NCBI GenBank assembly: GCA_916610825.1
Contig: OU744450.1
Coordinates: 4,552,578 to 4,616,577 of the forward strand
Origin: Haliclystus octoradiatus
Lineage: Eukaryota > Cnidaria > Staurozoa > Stauromedusae > Haliclystidae
Length of the DNA: 64,000 nucleotides
Direction of reading: 5' to 3'
Shown: piece by piece, positions 10,422 through 53,611 of the stretch
Numbering within the stretch: position 1 is the stretch's first letter
Layout of the letters: each line of letters opens with the position of its first letter
The notes under the pieces: model-generated
Databases searched by the model: none
What the model was told of the DNA's origin: nothing
What the model saw: the letters and a program-made list of their open reading frames with translations, nothing else
Translations under genes and position numbers: made by a program

Positions 10422-10667
10422 ATTGTACTGTGAGAGTTTCCTGTGCAGTCACATCGAATCCTGACCCTGTTGCAGTGCAAATAACATCTTTCCCATTGTC
10501 ATCACTTGATAATACATATGAACTAGCTATACTAGCATCCACTCCATCTATAGTAACTGTAACGGTAACATTCTCGTTAGGGATATTTGTAAGTGCAGTG
10601 CAAGTGATTCCAGGAGCATCGCCAGAATTTAGAGTATCAGGAACTGCCAAGACCACGGAATCCAGGT
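10422..10667 (-). CDS. Ig-like repeat exon 26, most divergent copy
   Basis: 246 nt (one codon shorter than all others), phase 1-1, acceptor CCTACATAG, donor GTAAGC. LDSVVLAVPDTLNSGDAPGITC, then TNIPNENVTVTVTIDGVDAS, SSDDNGKDVIC, GSGFDVTAQETLTVQ. It contains an N-V-T glycosylation sequon absent from the consensus copies. Its divergence and isolation make it the probable ancestral membrane-proximal domain. Downstream exons (membrane anchor or stop) were not found. Confidence 0.78.
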
Positions 10668-10807
10668 CTATGTAGGAAGCAAAATAATTATCAGTATATT
10701 AACTGTTTATTTATTAAAAGAGTTCGAAAGTGAATGATCCATTCAATCAATTTTGGAATCTGTGGACTATATGAGTGTCATTTTTCCCGATCCTCATTCA
10801 CATCCTC

Positions 10808-10890
10808 AGAGGATTAGCTCAGATGGCAGAGAAACCGAACTTCAGTTCGGATCATATCTGATCGACCGTGGTTCAAATCCTCCTAAGGTC
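10808..10890 (+). repeat. tRNA-like sequence with variable-arm-like hairpin
   Basis: A-box-like TTAGCTCAGATGGCAGAG, a CCGAA/TTCGG anticodon-type stem, an ATCA/TGAT variable-arm-like stem and a B-box-like GGTTCAAATCC. The anticodon loop has six rather than seven bases and the acceptor does not close, so this is a tRNA-derived repeat or pseudogene rather than a working tRNA. Confidence 0.45.
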
Positions 10891-12077
10891 AACTCAGCAT
10901 TGAATTTATCAGAAACAAATGAGTACCATCTGAGGATGGCGAATGGAATGGTCCATAGGGAATTGCATTGTGAGTAGCTGCGGCGCATCGTTGCGCATTG
11001 ACAATAAAGACCTGTAAGACCTATCTGCCATGAAATCTGTTGAAATTGATCTGCAGTGTCGCGGCTGAGATCAACAAAGAGCGTTTAAAATCATTGCTCT
11101 CAGCGAAAAATGTCACTCATCTAGAAATAGAGGAGTGGCACGGGTGCATTCGGTAGTGCGACATCGTCTACATTGCTTGTTTTATCGTCATTTAAAAATA
11201 TTATTGTTTTGATAAAAAATCAACATGTTGATGAGCAAGAAGGTTTTGAATCTGTATCTGTTAATTTTCTTGTATCCATAGGCATTCCAGGTTATAACCC
11301 TGTGTATAACTACACGTACAAAAATCCACAAAGCGTCATCATAAATAAAGAGTCATCCAAAAGACCCTATACACGAATACATTTGCATCTTTAGTGTCTT
11401 CACAATTTGCTCTCATTGAAATTTGAAAATTTATCCAGAAAATGTTCAAAAATGTTTTGAGAGTTTGGCTGAGCATAAAATTGTAAAATTGTTTGAGGCA
11501 CACATTTTTTTCTCTTTTTTTTCCAGGTTGTTGCTGTTTTGTATTTGTCAAAATATTTCAATCCAACTTTACGGAAAAAATAAATTTCCACTTATATATA
11601 TATCTTTAATTAAGTTATAATAATTTATCACAAAAGAATTAGATGATGTTATATTATTATTATTTAGTTAGAAACTCAATTTACGTGAGCTTTTCAAGCA
11701 GTGGATTCACTTGACTTGCCCAAGTCTCACTTTTACCATGACGATTTTGATATGTTGGTAAGTGAGACTTGTGTCCTTTGGCAATTCTATTGTTTTAGAA
11801 AACAAAGAAACCGCCATCAAAATCTCGTCGATGACGTAGTTTTATCTGAGTATTCCAGGGTGTCAACAGTCAACAGCGAACGAATCGTAAAATATATAAG
11901 AGCCTGAAATTTTAAAAGTGTTCAGTAAAATATTTGACAGAAATATTGGCTTGAGTCACTTGTTGTATATATACTTCAGGGTATTGGAGCTAATTAAACT
12001 GGAAAACTGATTTTATCATTCTAACTTACTGATTCTGGCGAGTCATTAATTTGCGAACGCTGCTGTTTACTGTAAAT
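10891..12077. other. Intron sequence without recognised features
   Basis: AT-rich. Overlapping short ORFs on both strands near 11340-11620 are low-complexity and have no domain character. Confidence 0.4.
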
Positions 12078-12263
12078 TTATGAGCGCTCGTTGGAGATCA
12101 AAATGCAGGTTGAAATATGATTCATTGTGGAAATGATAAACATTACACAAGAAAGGTTGCTATATTCTGAATAAATCTTTCCCAATTGCTCTTGTACACG
12201 ACGTGGAACTGCTGAATTTTTCGATGGTAACCCAAAGTATTCACAATGATACAACATTAAACA
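12078..12263 (-). pseudogene. Coding-like remnant, unrecognised
   Basis: On the minus strand an acceptor-like TTTTTACCCTTCAG is followed by an open frame beginning DCLMLYHCEYFGLPS and containing VPRRVQEQLGKIYSEYSN. Composition is that of real protein rather than AT noise. No family is recognised and no donor is evident before the stop. With 12686-13116 it may be a relic of an unrelated gene or transposon inside the giant intron. Confidence 0.3.
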
Positions 12264-12557
12264 ATCCTGAAGGGTAAAAACATTTACAGATAATTTCGCC
12301 ATCTGTATTTTGAATGATGATGTTGAAATAAGTTTGTAAGGTTTGACAAGCATCAGTTAATCGACTTGATTTAATAACTATGGTTTCCATATAGATGTAA
12401 TTCATTTTTTTTTGGCTTGCATGTTGCGTCTTTCATTAATTTACGTAATGTTGGACCCCATCTTTCCACGTACATCAAATGCGTGATAATTTGTCAGAAC
12501 AATACGATCAAACAGAATGCCGTTGTGCATAATCCTGCACAACGCTGTACGAAGGGA

Positions 12558-13116: not shown

Positions 13117-14027
13117 TATAATAAAGTGTTTTGTGATAGAATATTGTATTTTATATATCAGATAAAAACATCTTCAGCATATTAAATTCATTGATTAAAT
13201 ATACTTCTTAGACAGGATAGCTTTGTGAAGTAGTCGACAACAGCCGTTGTCCGTCGAATATAAAACTAGAATTAGGTATGATAAACACATTGCGTGTGTC
13301 GATTTCATCTTTCTGTAATTGTGTTTTCGTTGGAGAAACGCGTCTGCTGAAAGGCAAACAGGGGGTCATGCAATGGTTTTTCATAGCCAATCATTGAGAT
13401 TGAAGCTAACTAATCAGTGAAGCACTGACGTTAAGCTGCGGGAGATCGACCAAAATAGCGCAATGATTTTTAATTTTATAGACATTTATAGATCATCGTC
13501 CGCGGCGAAGTGCATACAAAGCGTTTTGCCGCTGTTTTAGTAGTCAACACCTTGATACATAAAAAAACTCCATCGAAGTCTAATAATACCTTTCTAAACT
13601 CTACATTTTACGTTCAATTTCAGTCATATATGGCCAACAAGGTGTCCCGAAAATATGGTAATATCTGTTCTGGAAAGTGGACAATTTCTTTTTCGCGAGA
13701 AAAAAGTTACGATCTTTTGAAGTCTAGACCTCGTTATTTTTCCATAGTGGACTCTCTTGTCATTCCGGCATGAGTTCCAGCTTTCGAAGCAGCCCTACTT
13801 CTGAAATAGGGTACTTTCAAAATGAAATATCTCCGCTTATAAGAGCCCAAATCGAAAAATTATTGCCGCCATTTCTATTTATTTTGCATGGGCTACTTGA
13901 TTCCGGAGTAAAAATTTTTGGTGTCATGTGCACTTTAACATTTTACTAAATAAAAAGTCTTCACTTTCATGACATATTGAACCGTTATTGAACCAATTCC
14001 ATTATTTGATGGTTTTATTATTATTAC
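13117..14027. other. Intron sequence without firm features
   Basis: Contains a plus-strand 87-codon ORF (13510-13773) of unknown nature and somewhat less AT-rich sequence at 13780-13960, possibly old transposon debris; no terminal repeats were seen. Confidence 0.3.
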
Positions 14028-14222
<195 letters not shown>

Positions 14223-14311
14223 CAGATAATATAGGGCTCTATGTCTTCATTTGACAGAGCGGTAAATAATAATAATATATGGCGAAAGAGTCAAAGAATA
14301 CACATTCTTTA

Positions 14312-14420: not shown

Positions 14421-14463
14421 CTGTCTGAAGATCGCTGTGAAAAGCGTGAAACTTGAGTAACAG
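14421..14463 (+). ncRNA. Hammerhead ribozyme motif (type I, minimal), right arm
   Basis: CTGT + CTGAAGA + TCGC...GCGT + GAAAC + TTGA + GTA + ACAG on the plus strand, the mirror of 14312-14354. A read-through transcript would contain one sense ribozyme and one antisense copy, which would instead pair as a long hairpin. Confidence 0.65.
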
Positions 14464-14497
14464 TAAAGAATGTGTATTCTTTGACTCTTTCGCCATA

Positions 14498-15242
<745 letters not shown>

Positions 15243-15276
15243 AATAATAATGGAGTCAAAGACTACGCATTCATTT

Positions 15277-15319
15277 TCTGTAACTTAAAGTTTCTCGCTT
15301 TATGCGATCATCAGACAGA
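15277..15319 (-). ncRNA. Hammerhead ribozyme in the Penelope-like 3' terminal repeat
   Basis: On the minus strand: TCTGT, core CTGATGA, stem II TCGC-ATAAA-GCGA, GAAAC, a three-base-pair stem III with loop TTA, GTT, then ACAGA. Stem I is TCTGT/ACAGA (5 bp), and all invariant core bases are present. Predicted cleavage is between 15282 and 15281. Minimal type I hammerheads in the terminal repeats are known for Penelope-like elements and retrozymes. Confidence 0.85.
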
Positions 15320-15491
15320 TACTATTAATGAAAAATATATACCAGTTACTCTTATTTGACAATAGTGGGAAAAAATTTGAAAAAAGAGAAAAACTATTGT
15401 TATACTTACAATGGTTTTATCTTTACAATTACTAAGTTATATTGTTATGTATTGTTATTAGTTTCCTTAATTAAATGGCGCTGTTATAAGG

Positions 15492-18544: not shown

Positions 18545-18660
18545 AAATGAATGCGTAGTCTTTGACTCCATTATTATTATTATTCACGCTCTGTCAAATG
18601 ACATCGAGCACTATATCAACTGCTGTTAGATACCATACCATTATTATTATTATTACATTA

Positions 18661-19050
<390 letters not shown>

Positions 19051-19343
19051 GACAGCTTCTGTATTGTTTAATTTTATATTTAATTTCTTTCAAATGCTGA
19101 TATCGCCAGACTGCAGAGTATGTAATTTGTGCTGCTAATTTATTTCTCAACTCACGTTTTAGTGCGGCTGGAAGTACCGTTTTTGTAACGTTTTCCATGT
19201 TCTGCGGCTGGATTTAGTTGAAAACATGAAAAAATTGTAAAACCAATTGAAAATGTGCGGCCAGCAAGGGCTCAGATCAATATTGAAATTCTTGTTCTGC
19301 AGCTAAGATCTTAGCCGCAGATAGCAAACTCTGAAATTTAAAG

Positions 19344-20614: not shown

Positions 20615-20863
20615 AATAAACAGCGAGTGTTTCTTGAATGGTCTTTGTATCAAAACCAATTGATGTCGCAGTACAAATAACGTCTTTGCCATCATCTTCT
20701 TTTGATAGCACATATGAGCTATCTGAGCTTGCATCTTCTCCATCGATAGTAATTGAAATGACAACATCTGCACTAGGAATATTTTTATCTGCTATGCAAG
20801 TGATTCCTGGAGTATCTCCAGATTTCAACAAACTTGTAATGGTGATGCTGACCGAATCCAGAT
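20615..20863 (-). CDS. Ig-like repeat exon 25 (class I)
   Basis: 249 nt, phase 1-1. SITITSLLKSGDTPGITC (Thr for the usual Pro), IADKNIPSADVV, DGEDASSDSSY, SIGFDTKTIQETLAVY. Last of the closely packed copies; a ~9.9-kb intron filled with mobile elements separates it from the final Ig exon. Confidence 0.82.
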
Positions 20864-22692: not shown

Positions 22693-22941
22693 ACTGTACA
22701 TCAAGTGATTGCTCCGCTGTCTTAGGGTCAAACCCATTTGATGTTGCAGTACAAGTCACATCTTTTCCATCATCTTCTTTTGATAGCTCATATGAGCTAC
22801 CTGAACTGGCATCTTGTCCATCGATAGTAATTGAAATGACAACATCTGCACTAGGAAGATTTGTATCTGCTGTGCAAGTGATTCCTGGCGCATCTCCAGC
22901 TTTCAACGAGCTAGGAATGATGATGCTGACCGAATCCACAT
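22693..22941 (-). CDS. Ig-like repeat exon 24 (mosaic, class II tail)
   Basis: 249 nt, phase 1-1. VDSVSIIIPSSLKAGDAPGITC, NLPSADVV, SSYELSKEDDGKDVTC, SNGFDPKTAEQSLDVQ. The SSSLKAGD-type head recalls exon 1 at the opposite end of the array (53363-53611), suggesting both edge exons keep an older head sequence. Confidence 0.82.
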
Positions 22942-23626: not shown

Positions 23627-23875
23627 ACTGTACATCAAGTGATTGCTCCGCTGTCTTAGGGTCAAACCCATTTGATGTTGCAGTACAAATCACATCTTTG
23701 CCATCATCTTCTTTTGATAGCACATATGAGCTACCTGAGCTTGCATCTTGTCCATCGATAGTAATTGAAATGATAACATCTGCACTACGAATATTTGTAT
23801 CTGCTGTGCAAGTGATTCCTGGCGCATCTCCAGATTTCAAAGAACCAGGAACTATCACGGTTACTGAATCCAGAT
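23627..23875 (-). CDS. Ig-like repeat exon 23 (class II)
   Basis: 249 nt, phase 1-1. LDSVTVIVPGSLKSGDAP, NIRSADVIISITIDGQ, SNGFDPKTAEQSLDVQ. It has an Arg in NIRS and Glu in AEQ, shared with its neighbour exon 24. A 2.9-kb intron with several inserted inverted-repeat elements lies upstream in the transcript. Confidence 0.82.
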
Positions 23876-26785: not shown

Positions 26786-27034
26786 AATAAACAGCAACTG
26801 TTTCTGGAATGGTCTTTGTATCAAACCCAGTTGATGTTGCAGTACAAATCACATCTTTACCATCATCTTCTCTTGATAACACATATGAGCTACCTGAACT
26901 TGCATCTTGTCCATCGATAGTAATTGAAATGACAACATCTGCACTAGGAATATTTGTATCTGCTGTGCAAGTGATCCCTGGCGCATCTCCAGATTTCAAA
27001 GAACCAGGAACTATCAAGCTTATTGAATCCAGAT
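26786..27034 (-). CDS. Ig-like repeat exon 22 (class II head, class I tail)
   Basis: 249 nt, phase 1-1. Begins LDSISLIVPGSLKSGDAP (class II) and ends STGFDTKTIPETVAVY (class I), with REDDGKDVIC in the centre. A clear mosaic. The intron upstream in the transcript holds a truncated Ig fragment (27157-27247) and the LINE. Confidence 0.82.
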
Positions 27035-29498: not shown

Positions 29499-29581
29499 AT
29501 GCCCTACCTGACGGAAACAAATGGAGCATCTGCTATGGACCCCAAGACCTAGATTCACAAAAACAATCAAGAAACTCTTAC

Positions 29582-31215: not shown

Positions 31216-31240
31216 CATCATCATCATCATCATCATCATT
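31216..31240. repeat. (ATC)n microsatellite, duplicated at 35819-35843
   Basis: About eight ATC/TCA units in the intron between exons 20 and 19. Present with equal length in both copies of the 4603-bp unit, although such repeats normally change length quickly, which supports a very recent duplication or an assembly copy. It is absent from the third partial copy, where the region near 40440 reads TTTTATAGAGTAAAAAATC. Confidence 0.8.
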
Positions 31241-34101: not shown

Positions 34102-34184
34102 ATGCCCTACCTGACGGAAACAAATGGAGCATCTGCTATGGACCCCAAGACCTAGATTCACAAAAACAATCAAGAAACTCTTAC

Positions 34185-35029: not shown

Positions 35030-35278
35030 ACTGTACATCAAGTGATTGGTCCGCTGTCTTTGGGTCAAATCCATTGGATGTTGCAGTACAAATCACATCT
35101 TTACCATCATCTTCTTTTGATAACACATATGAGCTACCTGAACTTGCATCTTGTCCATCGATAGTAATTGAAATGACAACATCTGCACTAGGAATATTTG
35201 TATCTGCTGTGCAGGTGATTCCTGGTGCATCTCCAGATTTCAAAGAACCAGGAACTATCAAGCTTACTGAATCCAGAT
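35030..35278 (-). CDS. Ig-like repeat exon 17 (class II)
   Basis: 249 nt, phase 1-1, class II consensus ending DPKTADQSLDVQ. Identical in translation to 30427-30675 (4603-bp duplication partner) and to 39663-39911. A 1.2-kb intron carrying two conserved palindromes separates it from exon 16. Confidence 0.84.
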
Positions 35279-36482: not shown

Positions 36483-36731
36483 AATAAACAGCGAGTGTTT
36501 CTGGAATGGTCTTTGTATCAAAACCAATCGATGTTGCAGTACAAATAACATCTTTGCCATCATCTTCTTTTGAGAGCACATATGAGCTACCTGAGCTTGC
36601 ATCTTCTCCATCGATAGTAATTGAAATGACAACATCTGCACTAGGAATATTTGTATCTGCCGTGCAAATGATTCCTGGAGCATCTCCGGATTTCAACAAA
36701 CTTGGAATGGTGATGCTGACCGAATCCAGAT
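36483..36731 (-). CDS. Ig-like repeat exon 16 (class I)
   Basis: 249 nt, phase 1-1. GDAPGIICTADTN head (Ile replaces Thr before the first Cys), DGEDASSG, SIGFDTKTIPETLAVY tail with IPET instead of IQET. It is the duplicate of 31880-32128 in the 4603-bp unit; the two exons differ by a single synonymous base seen in the Ala codon of the DAS motif. Confidence 0.83.
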
Positions 36732-37416
36732 CTAAGAATCAATGGGAATCACATAATACATTAATTGTTGTTGATATAAAATAACGAGAAGCTTGATTGT
36801 AGACGGCTTATTACTTCCAATATGTGATACAGTGATATCCTAAGGTATTATCCCATGGGGATGTAACTTCCATTGCGCTTCAATAAGGTTGTTCAAATAC
36901 AGCTTGACCATAAAACGTTTCACCTCATGGAATAATACCCCAAATATCTTTTCACAAAGAAAAGATTCAGCAATAGAAATTGAACTAAAATAAAATGAAG
37001 AAATTGTAAAGCCGACAAAAAGTATACCTTAAAGTTTTTCATGACAACGAATACCCTAAAATCTTGCTCTGAATTTTGAAAAAGATTCCCCGTGGATTAG
37101 AATGTCTCCGTTTACTTACAATAAGAAAGTAGCCCTCGAGTTTTAGTTCTAGGACAGTCAAACATTCTCTATTAACATCTTCAGCTTTTTCGATATCTCC
37201 AATTTCATAAATTTTCAAATACTATTTTGTCATTTTCAAAATCCCACCTCATTATAATTAAGATAAGCTATTTCCCACAAAGAAGGGATTTTAGACAATA
37301 TCTTACAATGAGCACGAATAGATTATTTAATTGTCTTTTTATCAATTCCAGTTGACATTGAATAAAATACTTTAAAAATCTTTATCTTATTACAAAGAAA
37401 ATGCACAGCTTCTTAC

Positions 37417-37665
37417 ACTGTACATGAAGTTCTTGATCCGCTATCTGTGTGTCAAACCCATTTGATATTGCCGTACAAATCACATCTTTGCCATCATCTT
37501 CTCTAAATAGCACATATGAGCTACCTGAGCTTGCATCTTGTTCATCGATAGTAATTGAAATGACAACATCTGCACTAGGAATATTTGTATCTGCTGTGCA
37601 AGTGATTCCTGGTGCATCTCCAGATTTCAAAGAACCAGGAACTATCAAGCTTACTGATTCCAGAT
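37417..37665 (-). CDS. Ig-like repeat exon 15 (class II variant)
   Basis: 249 nt, phase 1-1. LESVSLIVPGSLKSGDAP head, DEQDASSGSSYVLFREDD (Phe-Arg where others have Ser-Lys), AISNGFDTQIADQ and tail ELHVQ. It lies just beyond the right boundary of the 4603-bp tandem duplication and has no copy there. Confidence 0.82.
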
Positions 37666-38818: not shown

Positions 38819-39067
38819 AATAAACTGCGAGTGTTTCTTGAATGGTCTTTGTATCGAAACCAATTGATGTTGCAGTACAAATAACATCTTTGCCATCATC
38901 TTCTTTTGATAGCACATATGAGCTACCTGAGCTTGCATCTTCTCCATCGATAGTAATTGAAATGGCAACATCTGAACTAGGAATATTTTTATCTGCTATG
39001 CAAGTGATTCCTGGAGTATCTCCAGATTTCAACAAACTTGGAATGGTGATGCTGACCGAATCCAGAT
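38819..39067 (-). CDS. Ig-like repeat exon 14 (class I)
   Basis: 249 nt, phase 1-1. Class I: IADKNIPSSDVAISITIDGE (Ala replacing the usual second Val), then SIGFDTKTIQETLAVY. Paired with exon 13 across a ~595-bp intron, the short-intron half of the two-exon unit. Confidence 0.83.
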
Positions 39068-40411
39068 CTAAGAATCAATGATAATCACATGCTAAATTAA
39101 TTGTTTTTGATATAACATAACGAGAAGCTTGATTGCAGACGGTCTATTATATCCGATATATCCTACTTTGATAACCTAAGGTATTATCCGAAGAGGTTGT
39201 AACTTCCATTGCGCTTCAATGAGGATGTTCAATACAGTTTGACCATAAAAACGTTTCACATCATGGAAACGATATCCTAAATTTTTCATGACAAAGATGC
39301 CCCTTAATCTTTTCTGAATTTTAAAAAAGGAACCTCGTATATTTGAAAATCCCCGTATAGTAACAATATGAAAGTTACCAACAAGTATTCGTTCTTGGAT
39401 GATTAAACATTCTCTATTTCCATCTTAAGCTTTTTCTATTTCTCTAATTTCATAAATTTTCAAATCAGTTAGGTCTATTTCGAAATCCCGTCTCATTATA
39501 GTTAAGATAACCTATTCCCCACAATGAAGGGCTTTGAAACAATATCTTATTATGAGCAAGAATAGATTTTTTAATTGTCTTTTTCTCAAGTCCAGTTGAC
39601 ATTCAATGAAAATACAATAAAAATATTTATCTTGTTACAGAGGAAATACAAAAGCTTCTTACACTGTACATCAAGTGATTGGTCCGCTGTCTTTGGGTCA
39701 AATCCATTGGATGTTGCAGTACAAATCACATCTTTACCATCATCTTCTTTTGATAACACATATGAGCTACCTGAACTTGCATCTTGTCCATCGATAGTAA
39801 TTGAAATGACAACATCTGCACTAGGAATATTTGTATCTGCTGTGCAGGTGATTCCTGGTGCATCTCCAGATTTCAAAGAACCAGGAACTATCAAGCTTAC
39901 TGAATCCAGATCTAAGGAGTAACGATAATACGATCACATTTATGTAGGAAATGTTAATTTTCAGTTGGTTAAGAACAATTATATGATCAACAGGCGCACT
40001 TTCACGATAACAATGGATTATATTGAAATAATATTTTTTCAAAGTAACAATTGATTCTGATGTATGTCAATGAACTGAAAGAATTAACTGTTGAAGTCTG
40101 GAGCCTATCCGATAAGAAATGACGCTTAGAATAGACGCATCAGAACATCGATATCTATAAGCGTCCTTTCTTATCGGGTCAGCTTCCAGCTTTTAACAAT
40201 CAATGTTTCCAGTTGGTAAACACCAGAATGAGTCGCTATACTTTTAAAAATAGTTTTCAGTAGGATCTTCAAAGCTATATATAAGAAAACATCGCTTAAC
40301 TTCCAATATTCCAATGAAGATAATTCCATTATTTCTATTATCGAGATTCAAAATCCATGTTTTTTAATGCTGTGTAATCTGTCTTACTGATTGAACATAG
40401 GAATCAATAAC
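38986..40411. repeat. Partial third copy of the 4.6-kb segment
   Basis: From the class I exon at 38819-39067 through exon 39663-39911 and on to ~40411, the sequence is almost the same as 34352-35778, offset ~4633. It lacks the LINE, MITE and (ATC)n insertions. It is thus an older or separately exchanged version of the two-exon unit. Confidence 0.8.
39663..39911 (-). CDS. Ig-like repeat exon 13 (class II)
   Basis: 249 nt, phase 1-1. Class II consensus: SLIVPGSLKSGDAPGITC, NIPSADVV, DGQDASSG, TATSNGFDPKTADQSLDVQ. Its translation is identical to those of 35030-35278 and 30427-30675, and much of the flanking intron also matches, marking a partial third copy of the 4.6-kb duplicated segment. Confidence 0.84.
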
Positions 40412-41032: not shown

Positions 41033-41281
41033 AATAAACAGCAAGTGTTTCTTGAATGGTCTTTGTATCAAACCCGGTTGATGTTGCAATACAAATCACA
41101 TCTTTGCCATCATCTTCTCTTGATAACACATATGAGCTAGCTAAGCTTGCATCTTGTCCATCGATAGAAATTGAAATGACAAATTCTGCACTAGGAATAT
41201 TTGTAGCTGCTGTGCAAGTGATTGCTGGAGTATCTCCAGATTTCAACAAACTTGGAATGGTGATGCTGACCGAATCCAGAT
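41033..41281 (-). CDS. Ig-like repeat exon 12 (class I, divergent)
   Basis: 249 nt, phase 1-1. Class I head and tail, but with many private changes: GDTPAITC, TAATNIPSAEFV, SISIDGQDASLASSY, REDDGKDVICIATSTG. The cysteine pair is kept. It is one of the more diverged members in the centre of the array and has no near-identical partner in this window. Confidence 0.82.
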
Positions 41282-41934
41282 CTAAGTATCAATGATAATC
41301 ACATGCTAAATTAATTGTTGCTGATATAAAATAACGAGAAGTTTCATTGTAAGCGGTTTATTACGTCCAGTATATGATGCTTTGATATCCTAAGGTATTA
41401 TTCCAAGAGGTTTTAGCTTCCATTGCACTTCAATAAGGTTGTTCAAGTACAATCTAACCATATAAACGATTCACCTCATGGAAGATTCTCGATAAGACCA
41501 AATATATTTCTACAAAGGACAGATTCATCTATCAAAATTGAACTACAAAATAAAATGAACAAATATCTTGGCGACAAAAAGTATATCTCAAACTTTTTCA
41601 TGACAAACAATACACTAAAATCATGTTCTGAATCTTAACAAAGGTACCCCGTATATTTGAAAGTCTCTGTGTACTTACAATATGAATGTAGCTCTCGAAT
41701 TTTAGTTCTAGGATAAACAACATTCTCTATTAACATCTTCAGCAACATTATTTTGCCACTTTCAAAATCCCTACTCCTTATAAGCTATTACCCACAAAGA
41801 AAGGCTTCTAGACAATATTTTATAATGAGCATGAATAGACTCTCTAATTGTCTTTTTATCAAGTCCAGTTGACGTTTAATAAAAATAGAATAAACAAATG
41901 TATCTTTTTACAAAGAAAATGCACAGATTCTTAC

Positions 41935-42183
41935 ACTGTACTTGAAGTTCTTGATCCACTATCTGTGTGTCAAACCCATTTGACATTGCCGTACAAATTA
42001 CATATTTGCCATCATCTTCTTTTGTAAGCACATATGAGCTACCTGGGCTTGCGTCTTGTTCATCGATAGTAATTGAAATGACAACATCTGCACTAGGAAT
42101 ATTTGTATCTGCTGTGCAGGTGATTCCTGGTGCATCTCCAGATTTCAAAGAACCAGGAACTACCAAGCTCATTGCATCCAGAT
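41935..42183 (-). CDS. Ig-like repeat exon 11 (class II variant)
   Basis: 249 nt, phase 1-1. LDAMSLVVPGSLKSGDAP head, DEQDASPGSSYVLTKEDDGKYVIC (Tyr for the usual Asp before VIC), AMSNGFDTQIVDQ and tail ELQVQ. The donor lies in CTTAC on the plus strand as in the others; both cysteines are present. Partner of 47640-47888. Confidence 0.82.
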
Positions 42184-42891
42184 CTAGGTAGTAAGGATGA
42201 TAAGATTACATTATGTAGGAAATGTTGATTTGAAGTTGGTTAAGAACAATTATCTGATCAACATGCACACTTTCACGATAATAGGAATTTCCTTTGAAAA
42301 ACATTTACAAAGAAACGATTGATCCTTGTGTATATTAATTAACTGAGTATTTTATTTGTTAAAGTTTGAATCCGATCCAATAAGAAATAACGCTTAGAAT
42401 GGACGCATCAGAACATCGATATCTATAAGCGTCATTTCTTATCGGATCAGCTTACAACTTCCTTCAATCCATTGTATCAGTTGATATACATTATAATCAA
42501 TCATCACTTTAAAAAATAATTTTTCAGTAGAATTCTGCAAGTTATTTATAAGAAGACAACGTTGGATATTGTTTATATTTTTATACCGAAACTTCCAATA
42601 TTCCAATGATGATAGTTCCATTATTTGTATAGATCGATATTCATAATCAATGTTTTATATATAATGTGGTGTAAGTTGTCTCACTGATTGAACATGGGAA
42701 TCAATAGCTATACAGGAGATCTTTAAATATTGTATAAACTATAAAAAGTCAAAAATCAGACAATCATGTTTGCCATTCAAAGTTTCACGTCAAGCGATCA
42801 TCAGGCAATCTATTACGGAATATGATCGTGAATAGATTGCCTAATGATCGCCTTAAACTTTGGAGTAGCAAAACAATCAAGAAACTCTTAC

Positions 42892-43140
42892 AATAAACAG
42901 CGAGTGTTTCTTGAATGGTCTTTGTATCAAAACCAATCGATGTTGCAGTACAAATAACATCTTTGCCATCATCTTCTTTTGATAGCACATATGAGCTACC
43001 TGAGCTTGCATCTTCTCCATCGATAGTAATTGAAATGACAACATCTGAACTCGGAATATTTTTATCTGCTATGCAAGTGATTCCTGGAGTATCTCCAGAT
43101 TTCAACAAACTTGGAATGGTGATGCTGACCGAATCCAGAT
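42892..43140 (-). CDS. Ig-like repeat exon 10 (class I)
   Basis: 249 nt, phase 1-1, class I throughout (IADKNIPSSDVV, DGEDASSG, TIQETLAVY). Translation is identical to 48598-48846. Like that copy, its 3' flank joins directly to a palindrome (~42768-42869). This shows that a deletion shortening the intron happened before the ~5.7-kb duplication. Confidence 0.84.
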
Positions 43141-43486
43141 CTAAGAATCAATGATAATCACATGCTAAATTAATTGTTGTTGATATAACATAACGAGAAG
43201 CTTGATTGCAGACGGTCTATTATATCCGATATATGATACTTTGATATCCTAAGGTATTATCCCAAGAGGTGGTAACTTCCATTGCACTTCAATGAGGTTG
43301 TTAAAATACAGTTTAACCATAAAAACGTTTCTCCTCATGGATAAGATATCCTAAATTTTTCAAGACGAAGAATGCCCTAAAATCTTCTTCTGAATTTTAA
43401 AAAGGGTACCTCGTATATTTGAACGTCCCCGTATACTAACAATGTGAAAGTTACCAACGAGTATTAGTTCTTGAATGAATAAAGGT

Positions 43487-44205
43487 TTACCACACACTTG
43501 CCATATTTGTATTCATATTTACTAAACGAGAAAATGTTGGGAGACACGAGTGAAGCGCTAAAAAATCACAAGCTCCGAGCGAGTGATTAATAGATTCTCA
43601 AGTGTCTCCCAACTTTTTCGACTTTAGTAAATATGAATACAAACATTTGCAAGCGTGTGGTAACCCTTCTCTAAAATAAAACAAGCTTCGGAATTTCATT
43701 CGAGGGCGAATTATCAATTCACAATTTAAAATTCAATTTCTATTCATAAACCAAGCAAAAGAAATCCCATAGCAAGATAGATATTGTTGAATAAAGAAAG
43801 ACAAATACAAGAACGTCTGTAATAGAAGTTGTACATATAGTTCTCTAGAAGTTGATGTACTAATTGTTATCTAAATTTAAGGTTTACCTTGAAACAGCGT
43901 AGCCTATAATTGTTTTTCATTCTGTGTATTTATTTTGCATGCTGCACAACAAATAACTCATTTATGACGCTTTTCAATGAATATAAACATCTTGAGCTAA
44001 ATATTGTTTTGTAAATCGTTGCCATATTTGAGATATTTATTGAATTGTCATCGGAAAGTTATTATTTCTGCATTTTATCACAGATAAAACTTTTGAAGCT
44101 AGCGGTTTTTCCTGGTTTTTGGAGCCATGTTTTACCTTAGGATTTCATGCACGCTCTTTCGACCAATCAGATCGCAGAAAACCTTCCAGATATTTTGGAA
44201 TAAAC
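43487..44205. mobile_element. Dispersed 0.72-kb repeat with a foldback end, copy 1
   Basis: Positions 43487-43663 form a foldback: TTACCACACACTTGCCATAT...TTTACTAAACGAG and ...TTTAGTAAATATGAATAC...GTGTGGTAA, ~70-bp arms containing TGTTGGGAGACAC/GTGTCTCCCAAC. It is followed by ~540 bp (to TTCCAGATATTTTGGAATA) that is conserved with the copies at 49193 and 57700. No ORF of note. Confidence 0.75.
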
Positions 44206-44461
44206 ATTCTCTATTATCATCTTCAGCTTTTTCGATTAGTTAAATTTCATAAATTTTCAAATACAATTAGGTCATTTTCAAAATCTCGTCTCAATATGAT
44301 TAAGATAAGCTATTCCCCACAAAGAAGGGCTTTTTGAGACATTATCTTATTATGAGCAAGAATAGATTTTTTAATTGTCTTTTTCTCAAGTCCAGTTGAC
44401 ATTGAATGAAAATACAATAAAATATTTATCTTGTTACAGAGGAAATACAAAAGCTTCTTAC

Positions 44462-44710
44462 ACTGTACATCAAGTGATTGGTCCGCTGTCTTTGTGTCAA
44501 ACCCATTTGATGTTGCAGTACAAGTCACATCTTTGCCATCATCTTCTTTTGATAGCACATACGAGCTACCTGAGCTTGCCTCTTGTCCATCGATAGTAAT
44601 TGAAATGACAACATCTGAACTAGGAATATTTGTATCTGCTGTGCAAGTGATTCCTGGGGCATCTCCAGATTTCAACAAACTTGGAATGGTGATGCTGACC
44701 GAATCCAGAT
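44462..44710 (-). CDS. Ig-like repeat exon 9 (class I head, class II tail)
   Basis: 249 nt, phase 1-1. SITIPSLLKSGDAP head, NIPSSDVV, DGQEASSG, VTCTATSNGFDTKTADQ and QSLDVQ tail: the same mosaic arrangement as 50169-50417. The long intron on its 5' side ends in normal pyrimidine/AG context. The intron on its other side contains the 0.7-kb repeat element starting at 43487. Confidence 0.83.
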
Positions 44711-45398
44711 CTAAGAATCAATAGGAATCACATGATACATTAATTGTTGTTGATATAAAATAACGAGAAGCTTGATTGCAGATGGCTTATTACGTCCAAT
44801 ATGTGATACAGTGATATCCTAAGGTATTATCCCAAGAGGTTGTAACTTCCATTGTGCTTCAATAAGATTGTTCAAATACAGTTTGACCATAAAACGTTTC
44901 ACCTCATTGGAATAATACCCCAAATATCATTTAACAAAGAAAAGATTCAGCAATAAAAATTGAATTCAAAAATGAAATGAAGAAGCTGTAAGGCGACAAA
45001 AAGCATACCTCAAAGTTTTTCATGACAACGAATACCCTAAAATCTTGTTCTGAATTTTGAAAAAAGGTACCCCGTTTATTTGAATGTCTCCGTTTAATTA
45101 TAATATGAAAGTAACCCTCAAGTTTTAGTTCTAGGATAATCAAACATTCTCTATTAACATCTTCAGCTTTTTCGATATCTCCAATTTCATAAATTTTCAA
45201 ATACTATTTTATCATTTTTAGAATCCCACCTCATTATAATTAAGATAAGCTATTTCCCACAAAGAAGGGATTTTAGACAATATCTTACAATGAGCACGAA
45301 TAGATTATTTAATTGTCTTTTTATCAATTCCAGTTGACATTGAATAAATTACTTTAAAAATCTTTATGTTATTACAAAGAAAATGCACAGCTTCTTAC

Positions 45399-45647
45399 AC
45401 TGTACATGAAGTTCTTGATCCGCTATCTGTGTGTCAAACCCATTTGACATTGCCGTACAGATCACATCTTTGCCATCATCTTCTTTTGTAAGCATATATG
45501 AACTACCTGAGCTTGCATCTTGTCCAACGATAGTAATTGAAATGACAACATCTGAGCTAGGAATATTTGTATCTGCTGTGCAAGTGATTCCTGGCGCATC
45601 TCCAGATTTCAAAGAACCAGAAACTATCAAGCTTACTGAATCCAGAT
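45399..45647 (-). CDS. Ig-like repeat exon 8 (class II variant)
   Basis: 249 nt, phase 1-1. Head SLIVSGSLKSGDAP, NIPSSDVV, then ITIVGQDASSG (Val replacing the usual Asp before Gly), SSYMLTKEDD and AMSNGFDTQIADQELHVQ. The IVGQ and YML substitutions are unique in the array and fall in the putative loop between the two cysteines. Confidence 0.82.
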
Positions 45648-46713
45648 CTAAGGAGTAACCAGAATACGATCACATTTATGTAGGAATTTTTGATTTTCAG
45701 TTGGTTAAGAACAATTATATGATCAACATGCGCACTTTCACGATAATAAGGGATTCTATTGAAATAGTATTTTTTCAAAGTAACAATTGATTTTGATGTA
45801 TGTCAATGAACTGAAAGAATTAACTGTTGAAGTCTGGAGCCTATCCGATAAGAAATGACGCTTAGAATAGACGCATCAGAACATCGATATCTATAAGCGT
45901 CATTTCTTATAGGGTCAGCTTCCAACTTTCAACAGTCAATGTTATTATATTTGTTGTTTATATTTTAATTGCGAAACATCCAATATTCCAACGTAGACAA
46001 TTACAATATTTCTATTGATTGAGATTCATAATCAATATTTTATTTAATGTGATTTAAGCTGTCTTACTGATTGAACATAGGAATCAATAATTATACAGCA
46101 GAACTGTAAATAATATATAAATTTCATAAATTCAAAAAATAGACAATCATGTTTGCCATTCAAAGGTTCACCCAAAGCGATCATCAGGCAATCTATTCCG
46201 GAATATATTCATGAATAGATTGCCTAATCATTGGCTTGAACTTTGAGTAGCAAACACGTTTGTCTGATTTCTGACTTTTATATTGGAGGTATGAAGTTTA
46301 TGTTTTATAAAATTATGATCGTCAATATGTCAGAAAAGCTTCAGCGCAATAATTAATTTAGAATAACTTTTTTCAAAACAATTTATCATTATTAGCCCAA
46401 CATGTCGCATGACATTACAAAAATGAGTAAGGTAAATCCTTTTGACATTTGATGAAACCAAGAAAATAGTGATGATGGTGGCTAAATTATTATACTTTAT
46501 TATCATCTACTCAGTATTTATTTGAATTTCTCATACAGCCACAAACCGCTTAGGTTTTAGCTATTTTCTGCCGATGTGGTGTGTGAAATCTGTTATATGA
46601 TGTTGAAGCGTTTATACAGTTAATAGCCAGAGACAATTCCTGAAGCCAGCCAATGGTGCTTCTACCATGGACCTCAAGACCTAGATTCAGAAAAACAATC
46701 AAGAAACTCTTAC

Positions 46714-46962
46714 ACTTAACAGCAAGTGTTTCTTGAATGGTCTTTGTATCAAAACCAATTGATGTTGCAGTACAAATCACATCTTTGCCATCATCTTCTT
46801 TTGATAGCGCATATGAGCTACCTGAGCTTGCATCTTTTCCATCGATAGTAATTGAAATGACAATATCTGAGCTAGGAATATTTGTATCTGCTGTGCAAGT
46901 GATTCCTGGGGCATCTCCAGATTTCAACAAACTTGGAATGGTGATGCTGACCGAATCCACAT
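46714..46962 (-). CDS. Ig-like repeat exon 7 (class I with DAP head)
   Basis: 249 nt, phase 1-1. Head SITIPSLLKSGDAPGITC, NIPSSDIV, DGKDASSGSSYALSKEDD and tail KTIQETLAVK. The GDAP/TADTN segment is more typical of class II, so the N-terminal half looks converted. The tail ends in Lys rather than Tyr before the split codon, as in 34185-34433 and 29582-29830. Confidence 0.83.
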
Positions 46963-47639
46963 CTAAGAATCAACAATAATCACATGCTAAATTATTTGTT
47001 GTTGACATAAAATAACGAGAAGCTTCATTGTAAGCGGTATATTACGTCCAATATATGATACTTTGATATCCTAACGTATTATCCCAAGAGGTTGTAGCTT
47101 CCATTGCACTTCAATGAGGATATTCAAATACAATCTAACCATAAAAACGATTCACCTCATAGAAAATATACCCCAAATATATTTTTAAAAAGGACAATTT
47201 CAGCTATCAAAATTGAACTACAAAATAAAATGAACAAGTTTCTTTGCGTCAAAAGTGCACCTCAAAGTTTTTCATGACAAAGAATACACTAAAATCTTGT
47301 TCTGAATTTAAAAATGTACCCCGTATATTTGAATGTCTCAGTTTACTTACAATATGAAAGTAACCCACGAGTTTTAGTTCTAGGACGGTCAAACATTCTC
47401 TATTAACATCTTCAGCTTTTTCGATTTCTCAAATTTCATAAATTTTCAAATACTATTTTGTCACTTTCAAAATCGATACTCGTTATAAGCCATTACCAAC
47501 AAAGAAGGGCTTTTAGACAATATCTTACAATGAGCAAGAATAGACTCTCTAATTGTCTTTTTAGCAAGTCCAGTTGACGTTTAATAAAAATAGAATAAAC
47601 AAATGTATCGTTTTACAAAGAAAATGCACAGCTTCTTAC

Positions 47640-47888
47640 ACTGTACATGAAGTTCTTGATCCATTATCTGTGTGTCAAACCCATTTGACATTGCCGTACA
47701 AATCACATCTTTGCCATCATCTTCTTTTGATAACACATATGAGCTACCTGGGCTTGCATCTTGTTCATCGATAGTAATTGAAATGACAACATCTCCACTA
47801 GGAATATTTGTATCTGCTGTGCAGGTGATTCCTGGTGCATCTCCAGATTTCAAAGAACCAGGAACTACCAAGCTCATTGCATCCAGAT
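47640..47888 (-). CDS. Ig-like repeat exon 6 (class II variant)
   Basis: 249 nt, phase 1-1. Head LDAMSLVVPGSLKSGDAP, then NIPSGDVV, DEQDASPGSS, AMSNGFDTQIMDQ and tail ELHVQ. The DAM start and SPG loop are shared only with 41935-42183, its partner in the duplication. Both cysteines are conserved. Confidence 0.83.
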
Positions 47889-48597
47889 CTAGGTAGTAAG
47901 GATGATAAGATTACATTTATGTAGGAAATGTTGATTTGAAGTTGGTTAAGAACAATTATCTGATCAACATGCACACTTTCACGATAATAGGAATTTCCTT
48001 TGAAAAACATTTACAAAGAAACAATTGATCCTGGTGTATATTAATTAACTGAGTATTTTATTTGTTAAAGTTTGAATCCGATCCAATAAGAAATAACGCT
48101 TAGAATGGACGCATCAGAACATCGATATCTATAAGCGTCATTTCTTATCGGATCAGCTTACAACTTCCTTCAATCCATTGTATCAGTTGATATACATTAT
48201 AATCAATCATCACTTTAAAAAATAATTTTTCAGTAGAATTCTGCAAGTTATTTATAAGAAGACAACGTTGGATATTGTTTATATTTTTATACCGAAACTT
48301 CCAATATTCCAATGATGATAGTTCCATTATTTGTATAGATCGATATTCATAATCCATGTTTTATATATAATGTGGTGTAAGTTGTCTCACTGATTGAACA
48401 TGGGAATCAATAGCTATACAGGAGATCTTTAAATATTGTATAAACTATAAAAAGTCAAAAATCAGACAATCATGTTTGCCATTCAAAGTTTCACGTCAAG
48501 CGATCATCAGGCAATCTATTACGGAATATAATCGTGAATAGATTGCCTAATGATCGCCTTAAACTTTGGAGTAGCAAAACAATCAAGAAACTCTTAC

Positions 48598-48846
48598 AAT
48601 AAACAGCGAGTGTTTCTTGAATGGTCTTTGTATCAAAACCAATCGATGTTGCAGTACAAATAACATCTTTGCCATCATCTTCTTTTGATAGCACATATGA
48701 GCTACCTGAGCTTGCATCTTCTCCATCGATAGTAATTGAAATGACAACATCTGAACTCGGAATATTTTTATCTGCTATGCAAGTGATTCCTGGAGTATCT
48801 CCAGATTTCAACAAACTTGGAATGGTGATGCTGACCGAATCCAGAT
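48598..48846 (-). CDS. Ig-like repeat exon 5 (class I)
   Basis: 249 nt, phase 1-1. Class I consensus: SITIPSLLKSGDTPGITC, IADKNIPSSDVV, DGEDASSG, SIGFDTKTIQETLAVY. Its translation is identical to the exon at 42892-43140, its partner in the ~5.7-kb duplication. The intron on its 3' side is shortened: the palindrome at ~48474-48575 runs almost directly into the sequence beside the donor. Confidence 0.84.
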
Positions 48847-49192
48847 CTAAGAATCAATGACAATCACATGATAAATTAATTGCTGTTGATATAACATAAC
48901 GAGAAGCTTGATTGCAGACGGTCTATTATATCCGATATATGCTACTTTGATAACCTAAGGTATTATCCCAAGAGGTTGTAACTTCCATTGCACTTCAATA
49001 AGGGTGTTAAAATACAGTTTAACCATAAAAACGTTTCTCATCATGGATAAGATATCCTAAATTTTTCAAGACGAAGAATGCCCTAAAATCTTCTTCTGAA
49101 TTTTAAAAAGGGTACCTCGTATATTTGAACGTCCCCGTATACTAACAATTTGAAAGTTACCAACGAGTATTAGTTCTTGAATGAATAAAGGT

Positions 49193-49911
49193 TTACCACA
49201 CACTTGCCATATTTGTATTCATATTTACTAAACGAGAAAATGTTGTGAGACACGAGTGAAGCGCTAAAAAATCACAAGCTCCGAGCGAGTGATTATTAGA
49301 TTCTCAAGTGTCTCCCAACTTTTTCGACTTTAGTAAATATGAATACAAACATTTGCAAGCGTGTGGTAATCCTTCTCTAAAATAAAACAAGCTTCGGAAT
49401 TTCATTCGAGGGCGAATTATCAATTCACAATTTAAAATTCAATTTTTATTCATAAACCAAGCAAAAGAAATCCCATACCAAGATAGATATTGTTGAATAA
49501 AGAAAGACACATACAAGAACGTCTGTAATATAAGTTGTACATATAGTTCTCTAGAAGTTGATGTACTAATTGTTATCTAAATTTAAGGTTTACCTTGAAA
49601 CAGCGTAGCCTATAATTGTTTTTCATTCTGTGTATTTATTTTGCATGCTGCACAACAAATAACTCATTTATGACGCTTTTCAATGAATATAAACATCTTG
49701 AGCTAAATATTGTTTTGTAAATCGTTGCCATATTTGAGATATTTATTGAATTGTCATCGGAAAGTTATTATTTCTGCATTTTATCACAGATAAAACTTTT
49801 GAAGCTAGCGGTTTTTCCTGGTTTTTGGAGCCATGCTTTACCTTAGGATTTCATGCACGCTCTTTCGACCAATCAGATCGCAGAAAACCTTCCAGATATT
49901 TTGGAATAAAC
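49193..49911. mobile_element. Dispersed 0.72-kb repeat, copy 2 (within the 5.7-kb duplication)
   Basis: Copy of 43487-44205 at offset 5706 with a few substitutions (for example TGTTGTGAGACACG for TGTTGGGAGACACG). It was inserted before the duplication. Confidence 0.75.
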
Positions 49912-50168
49912 ATTCTCTATTATCATCTTCAGCTTTTTCGATTAGTTAAATTTCATAAATTTTCAAATACAATTAGGTCATTTTCAAAATCTCGTCTCAA
50001 TATGATCAAGATAAGCTATTCCCCACAAAGAAGGGCTTTTTGAGACATTATCTTATTATGAGCAAGAATAGATTTTTTAATTGTCTTTTTCTCAAGTCCA
50101 GTTGACATTGAATGAAAATACAATAAAAATATTTATCTTGTTACAGAGGAAATACAAAAGCTTCTTAC

Positions 50169-50417
50169 ACTGTACATCAAGTGATTGGTCCGCTGTCTTT
50201 GTGTCAAACCCATTTGATGTTGCAGTACAAGTCACATCTTTGCCATCATCTTCTTTTGATAGCACATACGAGCTACCTGAGCTTGCCTCTTGTCCATCGA
50301 TAGTAATTGAAATGACAACATCTGCACTACGAATATTTGTATCTGCTGTGCAAGTGATTCCTGGGGCATCTCCAGATTTCAACAAACTTGGAATGGTGAT
50401 GCTGACCGAATCCAGAT
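50169..50417 (-). CDS. Ig-like repeat exon 4 (class I head, class II tail)
   Basis: 249 nt, phase 1-1. Head SITIPSLLKSGDAP is class I and tail KTADQSLDVQ is class II. It has NIRSADVV, an Arg in place of the usual Pro, also seen in the exon at 23627-23875. The central loop reads DGQEASSG and the second cysteine context is VTCTATSNG. It is the duplicate partner of 44462-44710, from which it differs mainly around NIRSADVV versus NIPSSDVV. Confidence 0.82.
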
Positions 50418-51103
50418 CTAAGAATCAATAGGAATCACATGATACATTAATTGTTGTTGATATAAAATAACGAGAAGCTTGATTGTAGACGGCTTATTAC
50501 GTCCAATATGTGATACAGTGATATCCTAAGGTATTATCCCAAGAGGTTGTAACTTCCATTGTGCTTCAATAAGATTGTTCAAATACAGTTTGACCATAAA
50601 ACGTTTCACCTCATTGGAATAATATACCAAATATCTTTTAACAAAGAAAAGATTCAGCAATAAAAATTGAATTCAAAAATGAAATGAAGAAGCTATAAGG
50701 CGACAAAAAGCATACCTCAAAGTTTTTCATGACAACGAATACCCTAAAATCTTGTTCTGAATTTTGAAAAAAGGTACCCCGTTTATTTGAATGTCTCCGT
50801 TTATTTATAATATGAAATAACCCTCGAGTTTTAGTTCTAGGATAATCAAACATTCTCTATTAACATCTTCAGCTTTTTCGATATCTCCAATTTTATAAAT
50901 TTTCAAATACAATTTTGTCATTTTCAAAATCTCACCTCATTATAATTGAGATAAGCTATTTCCCACAAAGAAGGGCTTTTAAGAAATATCTTACAATGAG
51001 CACGAATAGATTATTTAATTGTCTTTTTATCAATCCCAGCTGACATTGAATAACAATATAATAAAAATTTATCTTATTACAAAGAAAATGCACAGCTTCT
51101 TAC

Positions 51104-51352
51104 ACTGTACATGAAGTTCTTGATCCGCTGTCTTTGTATTAAACCCATGTGACATTGCAACACAAATCACATCTTTGCCATCATCTTCTTTTGACAGAAC
51201 ATATGAGCTACCTGAGCTTGCATCTTGTTCATCGATAGTAATTGAAATGACAACATCTGCACTAGGAATATTTGTATCTGCTGTGCAGGTGATTCCTGGT
51301 GCATCTCCAGATTTCAAAGAACCAGGAACTGTCAAGCTTACTGATTCCAGAT
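51104..51352 (-). CDS. Ig-like repeat exon 3 (class II variant with ELHVQ tail)
   Basis: 249 nt, phase 1-1, acceptor AG before ATCTGGAATCAG, donor GTAAG. Starts LESVSLTVPGSLKSGDAP, carries DEQDASSG instead of the usual DGQDASSG in the central loop, and ends with ICVAMSHGFNTKTADQ then ELHVQ. The paired cysteines are conserved. It is the duplicate partner of the exon at 45399-45647 in the ~5.7-kb duplication, but the two differ at several residues, so this part has diverged. Confidence 0.82.
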
Positions 51353-52520
51353 CTAAGGAGTAACGATAATGTGATCACATATATGTAGGAAATGTTGATT
51401 TTCAGTTAGTTAACAACAATTAAATGATCAACATGCGCACTTTCACGATAATAAAGGATTCTATTGAAATAGTATTTTTTCAAAGTAACAATTGATTCTG
51501 ATGTATGTCAATGAACTGAAAGAATTAACTGTTGAGGTCTGGAGCCTATCCGATAAGAAATGACGCTTAGAATAGACGCATCAGAACATCGTTATCTATA
51601 AGCGTCATTTCTTATCGGGTCAGCTTCCAAGTCTCAACAATCAATTTTTTCAGTTGGTAAACACCAGAACGAATCACCATACTTTAAAAAATAATTTTTC
51701 AGTAGAATCCTCAAAGCTATTTAAAAGAAGACAACGTTCGATATTGGTTATATTTTAATCGCGAAACTTCCAATATTCCAATGAAGACAATTACATTATT
51801 TCTGTTGATTGAGATTCATAATCAATGTTTTATTTAATGTGGTGTAAGCCGCCTTACTGATTAAAAATAGGAATCAATAATTGTACAGCAGAACATAAAT
51901 TTCATAAATTCAAAAAACAGACAATCATGTTTGCCATTCAAACTTTCACGTCAAGCGATCATCAGGCAATCTAATCCGGAATCTATTCATGGATAGATTG
52001 CCTAATGATTGACTTTAACTTTTGAGTAGCAAACATGGTTGTCTGATTTCTGACTTTTCTATTTTAGATATGATGTTTATGTTTTATAAAAATGTGATCG
52101 TCAATATGTCAGAAATGTTTCAGTGCGATAACCAATTTAGAATAACTATTTCGAAAATAATTTATCATTATCAGCCCAACTTAATATTACGAAAAGTGGC
52201 AAAAGAGTCGCATTGATAATACAAAAAATGGGAAAGCTGAAGCATTTCGACATTTGAAGAAACCTAAAAAATCGAGATGATGATGGCTAAATTAGTATAG
52301 TATATTATTATTTATGCAGTATTAATTTGGATTTATCGTATGACCACAAACCGGGATAGGTTTTCAGCTATTTTCCAACGAGGTGGCTCGTGAATTCTGT
52401 TATATTCAGTCGAAGCGTTTGTACGGTTAATAGGCGGATGCCCTTTCTGACGTCAACCAATGGTGATTCTGCTATGGACCGCTAGACCTAGATTCAGAAA
52501 AACAATCATGCAACTCTTAC

Positions 52521-52769
52521 GATAAACAGCAAGTGTTTCTTGAAGGGTCTTTGTATCAAACCCATTTGATGCTGAAGTACAAATCACATCTTTTCCATCA
52601 TCTTCTTTTGATAGCACATATGAGCTACCTGAGCTTGCATCTTTTCCATCGATAGTAATTGAAATGACAACATCAGCACTAGGAATATTTGTATCTGCTG
52701 TGCAAGTGATCCCTGGCGCATCTCCAGATTTTAAAGAACCAGGAACTAGCAAGCTTACCAAATCCAGAT
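52521..52769 (-). CDS. Ig-like repeat exon 2 (class II head, class I tail)
   Basis: 249 nt, phase 1-1. It begins LDLVSLLVPGSLKSGDAP (class II head) and ends LQETLAVY (class I tail), so it is a mosaic. The second cysteine is followed by an unusual TSASNG. The last exon base is C instead of T (TATC before GTAAGAG), so the split codon at the next junction becomes His rather than the usual Tyr. A ~593-bp intron lies before it and a 1.17-kb intron after it. Confidence 0.8.
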
Positions 52770-53362
52770 CTAATAATCAATGATAATCACATGCTAAATT
52801 TTATATAAATAACGAGAATCTTGATTGTAGACGGTTTATTACGTCCGATATGTGATACATCATTGATAATCTAAGGTATTAGCCAAAGGGGTAGTAACTT
52901 CCATTGCGACTCAATGAGGCTGTTCAAATACTTTTTGACCATAAAAACTTTCCACCTCATGGAAAAGTTAGCCTAAGTATATTTTTTACAAAGGACAGAT
53001 TCAGCTGCCCTAAAATTTTTTTTTTAATTTTGAAAAGGCTACTCGGTATATTGAAACGTCCCCGTATACTAACAAAATAGAAGTTATCCACGAGTATTAG
53101 TTCTAGAATAATCAAAAATTCTCTATTACTTTCTTCAGCATTGTCGAATTCAGCAAGCTTCAAATGCAATTTTATTATTTTCAAAATCCCATCTCATTAT
53201 AATTAAGATACACTATTACCCACAAAGAAGGGCTTTTCGACAATATCTTACGATGAGCAAGAACAAGTTCTTTAATTGTCTTGCTATCAATTGCAGTTGA
53301 CGTTGAATGAAAATAGATAAAAATATTTATCTTATTACAAACGACATATACAAGCTTCTTAC

Positions 53363-53611
53363 ACTGTACATCTAGTGATTGGTCTGCTGTCTTTGTATCA
53401 AACCCACTTGACATTGCAGTACAAATCACATCTTTGCCATCATCTTCTTTTGATAGCACATATGAGCTACCTGAGCTTGCATCTTGTCCATCGATAGTAA
53501 TTGAAATGACAACATCTGCACTAGGAATATTTGTATCTGCTGTGCATATGATTTCTGGGGTATCTCCAGCTTTCAACGAGCTAGAAATTACAAGGTTTAC
53601 CGAGTCCAAAT
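53363..53611 (-). CDS. Ig-like repeat exon 1 (class II)
   Basis: First of the tandem series in transcript order. It is 249 nt, phase 1-1, acceptor TTTTACAG, donor GTAAG, encoding 83 residues with cysteines at about 22 and 63. It is divergent at its start (NLVISSSLKAGDTPEIIC), whereas most copies read GITC here. The rest follows the family consensus (DVVISITIDG, EDDGKDVIC) and ends in the class II tail TADQSLDVQ. This edge position of the array fits less homogenisation than the central copies. Confidence 0.82.

Follow-up and report, generated by a model that had tools for sequence, protein, structure and literature searches.

The window analyzed here, i.e., 64,000 nucleotides from Haliclystus octoradiatus (Staurozoa), covers positions 4552578-4616577 of C6, the contig representing chromosome 5 (27,810,455 bases in a genome of 261.9 Mb and 33 contigs), and contains no N bases. 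It carries a long gene with an array of immunoglobulin (Ig) exons, referred to as gene A, and the start of a sister gene, referred to as gene B. The whole analysis is based on the DNA of one haplotype of one individual. Gene A lies on the minus strand and extends from 62032 to at least 10422; its 29-exon model comprises 6,991 nt and 2,330 codons, without a bad splice site or an internal stop. The first exon provides the start codon and the signal peptide and ends in phase 1 (61933-62032). It is followed by a cysteine-rich exon of 180 nt (59091-59270) and a distinct Ig domain of 240 nt, termed IgN (54529-54768), both in phase 1 at either end, by the 25 array units, each 249 nt long (53611 to 20615), and by a 246-nt C-type Ig exon (10422-10667), the last exon found for this gene. 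Only two signal-peptide exons were detected in 134 kb, one belonging to gene A and the other to gene B, which leaves a single signal peptide at the head of the array.

A repeat search of the window recovered 26 copies, all in register, and a splice-site scan returned 26 exons, all 249 nt long except one of 246 nt, each free of stops, preceded by AG, followed by GT, and in phase 1 at both ends (overlapping alternative boundaries were also listed for five of the 26). This confirms the 26 intact and symmetric exons described in an earlier note on this DNA; the signal peptide in front of them is likewise supported, and the cysteine pair placed about 41 residues apart corresponds to unit residues 22 and 63. 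Located by the splice-site scan and subsequently typed by their ends, the units occupy, on the minus strand, 53363-53611 (U1), 52521-52769 (U2), 51104-51352 (U3), 50169-50417 (U4), 48598-48846 (U5), 47640-47888 (U6), 46714-46962 (U7), 45399-45647 (U8), 44462-44710 (U9), 42892-43140 (U10), 41935-42183 (U11), 41033-41281 (U12), 39663-39911 (U13), 38819-39067 (U14), 37417-37665 (U15), 36483-36731 (U16), 35030-35278 (U17), 34185-34433 (U18), 31880-32128 (U19), 30427-30675 (U20), 29582-29830 (U21), 26786-27034 (U22), 23627-23875 (U23), 22693-22941 (U24), and 20615-20863 (U25). They represent 21 distinct DNA and 20 distinct protein sequences, with a mean DNA identity of 87.3%. The C-type exon is of a distinct type, located about 10 kb from the others, sharing 59-68% protein identity with the 25 array exons, and having four homologous exons in gene B. 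The repeat search additionally revealed two shortened unit copies on the same strand, one of about 35 codons that is not a usable exon (27256-27152) and one that comprises 33 codons of the 3' part (20296-20198).

Both cysteines of the unit are invariant across 27 aligned rows. Profile searches with the 83-residue unit, as proposed earlier, were successful in part: the PDB profile matches are Ig proteins and the structural fold matches are Ig as well, whereas the unit is not recognized by Pfam, where ICAM D2 was the best Ig-type row (E 0.21). Based on a predicted Ig-like beta sandwich and the cysteine pair, the array unit can be assigned to the immunoglobulin superfamily. The one distinct Ig domain expected ahead of the array was recovered as IgN, which matches Ig_2 with an E-value of 6.7e-5, below the cut-off. 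The cysteine-rich exon had been regarded as a TSP1-like module. Its cysteine spacing presumably resembles that of the Thrombospondin type 1 repeat; however, Pfam lends this designation no support, as there was no match at E up to 10 for the exon alone, and only Ig families were listed when it was joined to its neighbors.

Block comparison demonstrated that the array was recently enlarged. A 4,603-bp block with three Ig exons is duplicated head to tail (27927-32529 and 32530-37132), and the two copies are 99.85% identical, with seven mismatches. An older duplication of about 4.2 kb connects 41749-45940 and 47454-51645, which carry four Ig exons each and are 97.2% identical. The head-to-tail block, given its high identity, argues for growth of the array by unequal exchange, and such a recent segmental duplication makes differences in exon copy number between individuals likely. 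The description as a variable receptor can therefore be retained in one respect, as copy number probably varies, while diversity by splicing and a membrane location found no support. LINE-like reverse transcriptase fragments (29165-27493 and 33768-32666, minus strand) lie inside the 4,603-bp block and were copied along with it.

Two N-terminal types (n1 and n2) and two C-terminal types (c1 and c2) alternate along the array; the type references were picked after viewing the alignment, the N end of U1 is untyped, and that of U24 is a narrow call. In 22 of the 24 neighbor junctions, a c1 end precedes an n2 end and a c2 end an n1 end, with U1-U2 and U18-U19 as exceptions, whereas at most 21 junctions obeyed this rule in 20,000 random unit orders. 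Intron ends sort into the same two classes (87% within and 66% between classes for the last 200 nt). We attribute the junction rule to linkage through introns, because exon ends and the intervening intron duplicate together, and consecutive splicing would therefore always join matched ends. Five units are chimeric, which applies to U2 and U22 (n1c2), U4 and U9 (n2c1), and, by a narrow margin, U24 (n2c1); this is the pattern that crossovers inside exons would make.

The array exons are under purifying selection, with a ratio of nonsynonymous to synonymous substitution (dN/dS) of about 0.43. Pairwise values were 0.43 within group X (78 pairs), 0.42 within group Y (66 pairs), and 0.44 between the groups (156 pairs), and reached 0.46 over 372 usable of 378 pairs after the three units of gene B had been added. 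Furthermore, randomizing the observed substitutions on the two type consensuses in 2,000 runs introduced a stop into 10.95 of the 25 units on average and into no fewer than four, compared to none of the 25 observed; copies were treated as independent, so this expectation is a rough one.

Gene B begins with a signal-peptide exon at 447-546 on the minus strand and extends beyond the window, where its end resembles a lamin tail domain (LTD; C6:4509996-4509749 and 4507668-4507375). The 12 exons of the model encode 934 aa up to a single terminal stop, and a poly(A) signal lies 287 nt further on. It encodes a signal peptide, a cysteine-rich exon, IgN, three units, four C-type exons (eight Ig domains in all), and the two-exon LTD-like end. 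The predicted protein contains no membrane-like segment after the signal peptide, none of the exons was labelled FNIII, and the product looks like a secreted protein. Since this complete sister gene lacks a transmembrane segment and ends LTD-like, the term receptor used for gene A is unsupported, even though gene A itself may have a membrane exon. The four C-type exons encode identical proteins, and this exon is amplified at a 1,975-bp period (C6:4522578-4532577; three intervals, one of them enlarged by an insertion), representing a second, independent exon expansion. The N-terminal exons of the two genes were compared as well. The cysteine-rich exons differ in 13 codons (16 nt of 183), all of them amino-acid-changing, and are more diverged than the upstream intron (10 mismatches in 428 nt; p 0.0007). 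NG86 estimates of dN and dS were 0.105 and 0.052 for the cysteine-rich exon, 0.083 and 0.121 for IgN, and 0.083 and 0.083 for the signal peptide. This could hint at diversifying selection at the N-terminus or, alternatively, at gene conversion in the intron.

The match between the LTD-like end of gene B and Pfam LTD (E-value 0.0011) did not reach the curated cut-off. Reading of the sequence at C6:13.65 and 13.83 Mb revealed Ig exons followed by LTD exons, with a phase-1 entry and a phase-0 inner junction as in gene B. The same order is found, by coordinates alone, at C1:9.19-9.20, C6:8.94-8.96, and C6:9.03-9.04 Mb, and these loci together suggest a secreted Ig-LTD family. Searching prokaryote genomes for relatives of three LTD ends produced at least 588 pattern matches, at least 389 of which were confirmed, and the best 80 were kept. 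These best 80 relatives come from many bacterial phyla and are 43-53% identical to the LTD of gene B over about 165 aa. Two aligned paralogs from the jellyfish genome itself reach 42-43%, so that the LTD-like end is about as similar to the bacterial modules as to these two paralogs. Four of the 80 were run against Pfam LTD and likewise remained below the cut-off (E 2.7e-5 to 5.2e-8). In Alteromonas genovensis, the LTD-like module is located N-terminally in a long protein that reads like an extracellular nuclease; LTD-bearing extracellular nucleases have reportedly been published already (PMC6085458). Thus, the bacterial extracellular LTD modules resemble the end of gene B in sequence, whereas in the jellyfish the module is preceded by Ig exons and interrupted by an intron. 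In a 30-row tree, the LTD of gene B grouped with bacterial rows and apart from the two paralogs, with 21 of 27 inner branches weak, a midpoint root, and a long row for gene B. Its LTD may have been acquired by transfer from bacteria. The papers searched in the open-licence part of PubMed Central (PMC) described neither Ig domains combined with a bacterial-like LTD end nor an Ig-LTD array, and a search there for Haliclystus and immunoglobulin gave no description of such genes (one ctenophore paper matched).

Taken together, the Ig exon array is real, functional-looking, and recently expanded, and belongs to a probably secreted family. We favor, with some confidence, the view that gene A is an extracellular member of this Ig family with a long Ig chain, whose exons are joined in order and whose array lengthens by unequal exchange. 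If expressed in this form, every exon of gene A would be joined in genomic order, resulting in about 27 Ig domains behind the signal peptide and the cysteine-rich exon, and gene B would represent the complete family form, secreted and with an LTD-like C-terminus. Unequal exchange between repeats, partly inside exons, would lengthen and shuffle the array; domain number would differ among individuals, and the ends of neighboring domains would stay matched. The expected product is an adhesive or ligand-binding rod in the extracellular space.

Several observations weigh against this interpretation. The AlphaFold model is moderate (pLDDT 75.5, with 45-50 for the other four models), and Foldseek retrieved no match at E ≤ 0.001. 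The junction rule could arise by linkage alone. At the TSP/IgN cassettes at C6:8.149 and 8.21 Mb and at the Ig matches at 9.88-9.92 and 10.01 Mb, no LTD match follows shortly downstream, and LTD may therefore not be general in the family. A 3' end of gene A was not found, and its model contains no stop after the C-type exon; the codon scan for such an end, trained on 7,518 nt, missed the signal-peptide and cysteine-rich exons of both genes and two of gene B's three units in the control, so that a short 3' exon of gene A may have escaped it. Between 546 and 10420, there are eight stop-free stretches with hydrophobic segments, not distinguishable from AT-rich chance, through which a membrane exon of gene A becomes possible.

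The ending of gene A is also the point at which a different arrangement has to be considered, i.e., that A and B represent alternative 5' cassettes within a single locus, with own promoters and signal peptides and one shared LTD end, comparable to chelicerate sDscam and clustered protocadherins. No LTD was found between 10420 and 546, and the 184 kb searched contain only that of gene B (one other row, E 0.28). Homology between A and B extends past the C-type exon to 8914 and, on the other side, from the signal peptide of gene B to 3628, and thus reaches about 3 kb beyond both signal-peptide exons on their upstream side, whereas the A side between 546 and 8914 consists largely of repeats and retroelement pieces. 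Splicing from A to the LTD, directly or through B, stays in frame to the stop in both cases. Gene A may thus either read through to the LTD of gene B or end with an own exon not seen. A shared end would, however, demand a splice that bypasses gene B and spans 53 kb or more, and the TSP-IgN cassettes without a downstream LTD match argue against it as well; we consider it possible but doubtful. A locus in which promoter-driven cassettes A and B share one bacterial-type LTD end, and in which a secreted Ig protein is diversified by promoter choice, by the copy number of matched Ig pairs, and by crossovers inside Ig exons, appears rather unlikely. According to PMC4835542, chelicerate sDscam genes have tandem 5' Ig cassettes of one or two Ig domains with promoters, feeding Ig-FNIII-transmembrane exons. 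The tandemly duplicated 5' Ig cassettes and the conservation of the frame upon exon skipping or multiple inclusion are common to both systems; in contrast, the cassettes described here have 27 or eight Ig domains, and the one end that was found resembles an LTD and lacks a membrane segment. The conserved stretch at 9695-8914, which follows the C-type exon, was evaluated as a shared last exon and rejected because of frame-breaking indels between A and B, as judged by eye. Pieces of a Gypsy-like retroelement, split over several frames and likewise identified by eye, occupy part of the space that separates the C-type exon of gene A from gene B's start (about 3960-5950, plus strand).

Diversification by splicing, as suggested in the earlier note, could take the form of a Dscam-like choice, mutually exclusive or combinatorial, with one or few Ig exons per transcript. 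The interchangeable phase-1 exons would allow this, and a k-mer test for docking sites yielded one weak exception to candidate regions that were mostly at shuffle level: 10 of 24 introns are complementary to an AT-rich 12-mer that lies 5' of the C-type exon (the best shuffles scored 8 and 6 of 15; dinucleotides were kept only roughly in the shuffling). However, the remaining candidate regions were not clearly above the shuffles, 249-nt exons permit multiple inclusion, and all introns are GT-AG and at least 593 nt long. The lack of a convincing docking signature, these long introns, and the matching of neighboring ends in genomic order favor plain consecutive splicing, and we regard a Dscam-like mechanism as improbable. 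Arthropod Dscam1 differs further, since its exon clusters offer single-choice variants rather than two alternating exon types, and since the complete sister gene B has no membrane segment. A transmembrane recognition receptor of the Alr type is quite improbable as well. In PMC11067881, Hydractinia Alr1 and Alr2 are described as single-pass transmembrane, highly polymorphic proteins. With these, the genes described here share a cnidarian origin, tandem Ig-superfamily clusters, and domains recognized mainly by structure and weakly visible to Pfam; moreover, no end was found for gene A, and the amino-acid-changing differences between the cysteine-rich exons hint at diversifying selection. In contrast to the Alr proteins, the complete family member is predicted to be secreted and has a long Ig array and an LTD end, and the array exons are under purifying selection. 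Finally, gene A could be a decaying or non-expressed duplicate and its array a by-product of repeat expansion, in accordance with the failure to find a 3' end, the two shortened copies, and the transposable element insertions in introns. This is very improbable, given that no unit carries a stop where about 11 were expected, that all splice sites are kept, and that dN/dS is about 0.43.

In a non-bilaterian animal, the locus thus presents an Ig exon array that is very long and recently duplicated and whose types, matched junctions, and crossover products are directly readable. Should exon number prove variable in populations, or should the two cassettes use a common end, diversified Ig proteins would have been reached by an independent route outside bilaterians. 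Elsewhere in the genome, another contig carries two arrays of Ig-like exons that run in opposite directions and repeat every 333 bp (C2:3291005-3320541, minus strand, and C2:3355919-3403104, plus strand), corresponding to roughly 90 and 140 periods if continuous and being 42-45% identical to the unit among the matches listed (150 of 496 candidates scored).

Regarding other features, the 10-kb last intron of gene A contains a 740-codon open frame (17714-15492, minus strand) that had no Pfam match at E up to 10 and that, by eye, resembles a Penelope-type reverse transcriptase with a GIY-YIG end. Trinucleotide repeats of the ATT/TAA type, very long and reaching about 0.8 kb, occur at 14457-15359, 2499-2954, 18559-19213, and 13935-14254. 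A tunicate origin of the DNA was considered as well; the cellulose-synthase-linked GH6 family gave no match, although the control genomes were equally silent, and an 18S match was an uninformative copy of degenerate appearance. This origin was rejected in view of the mitochondrial contig of H. octoradiatus, on which COX1 is translated with code 4, TGA specifying tryptophan, and COX2 lies on the strand opposite to COX1.

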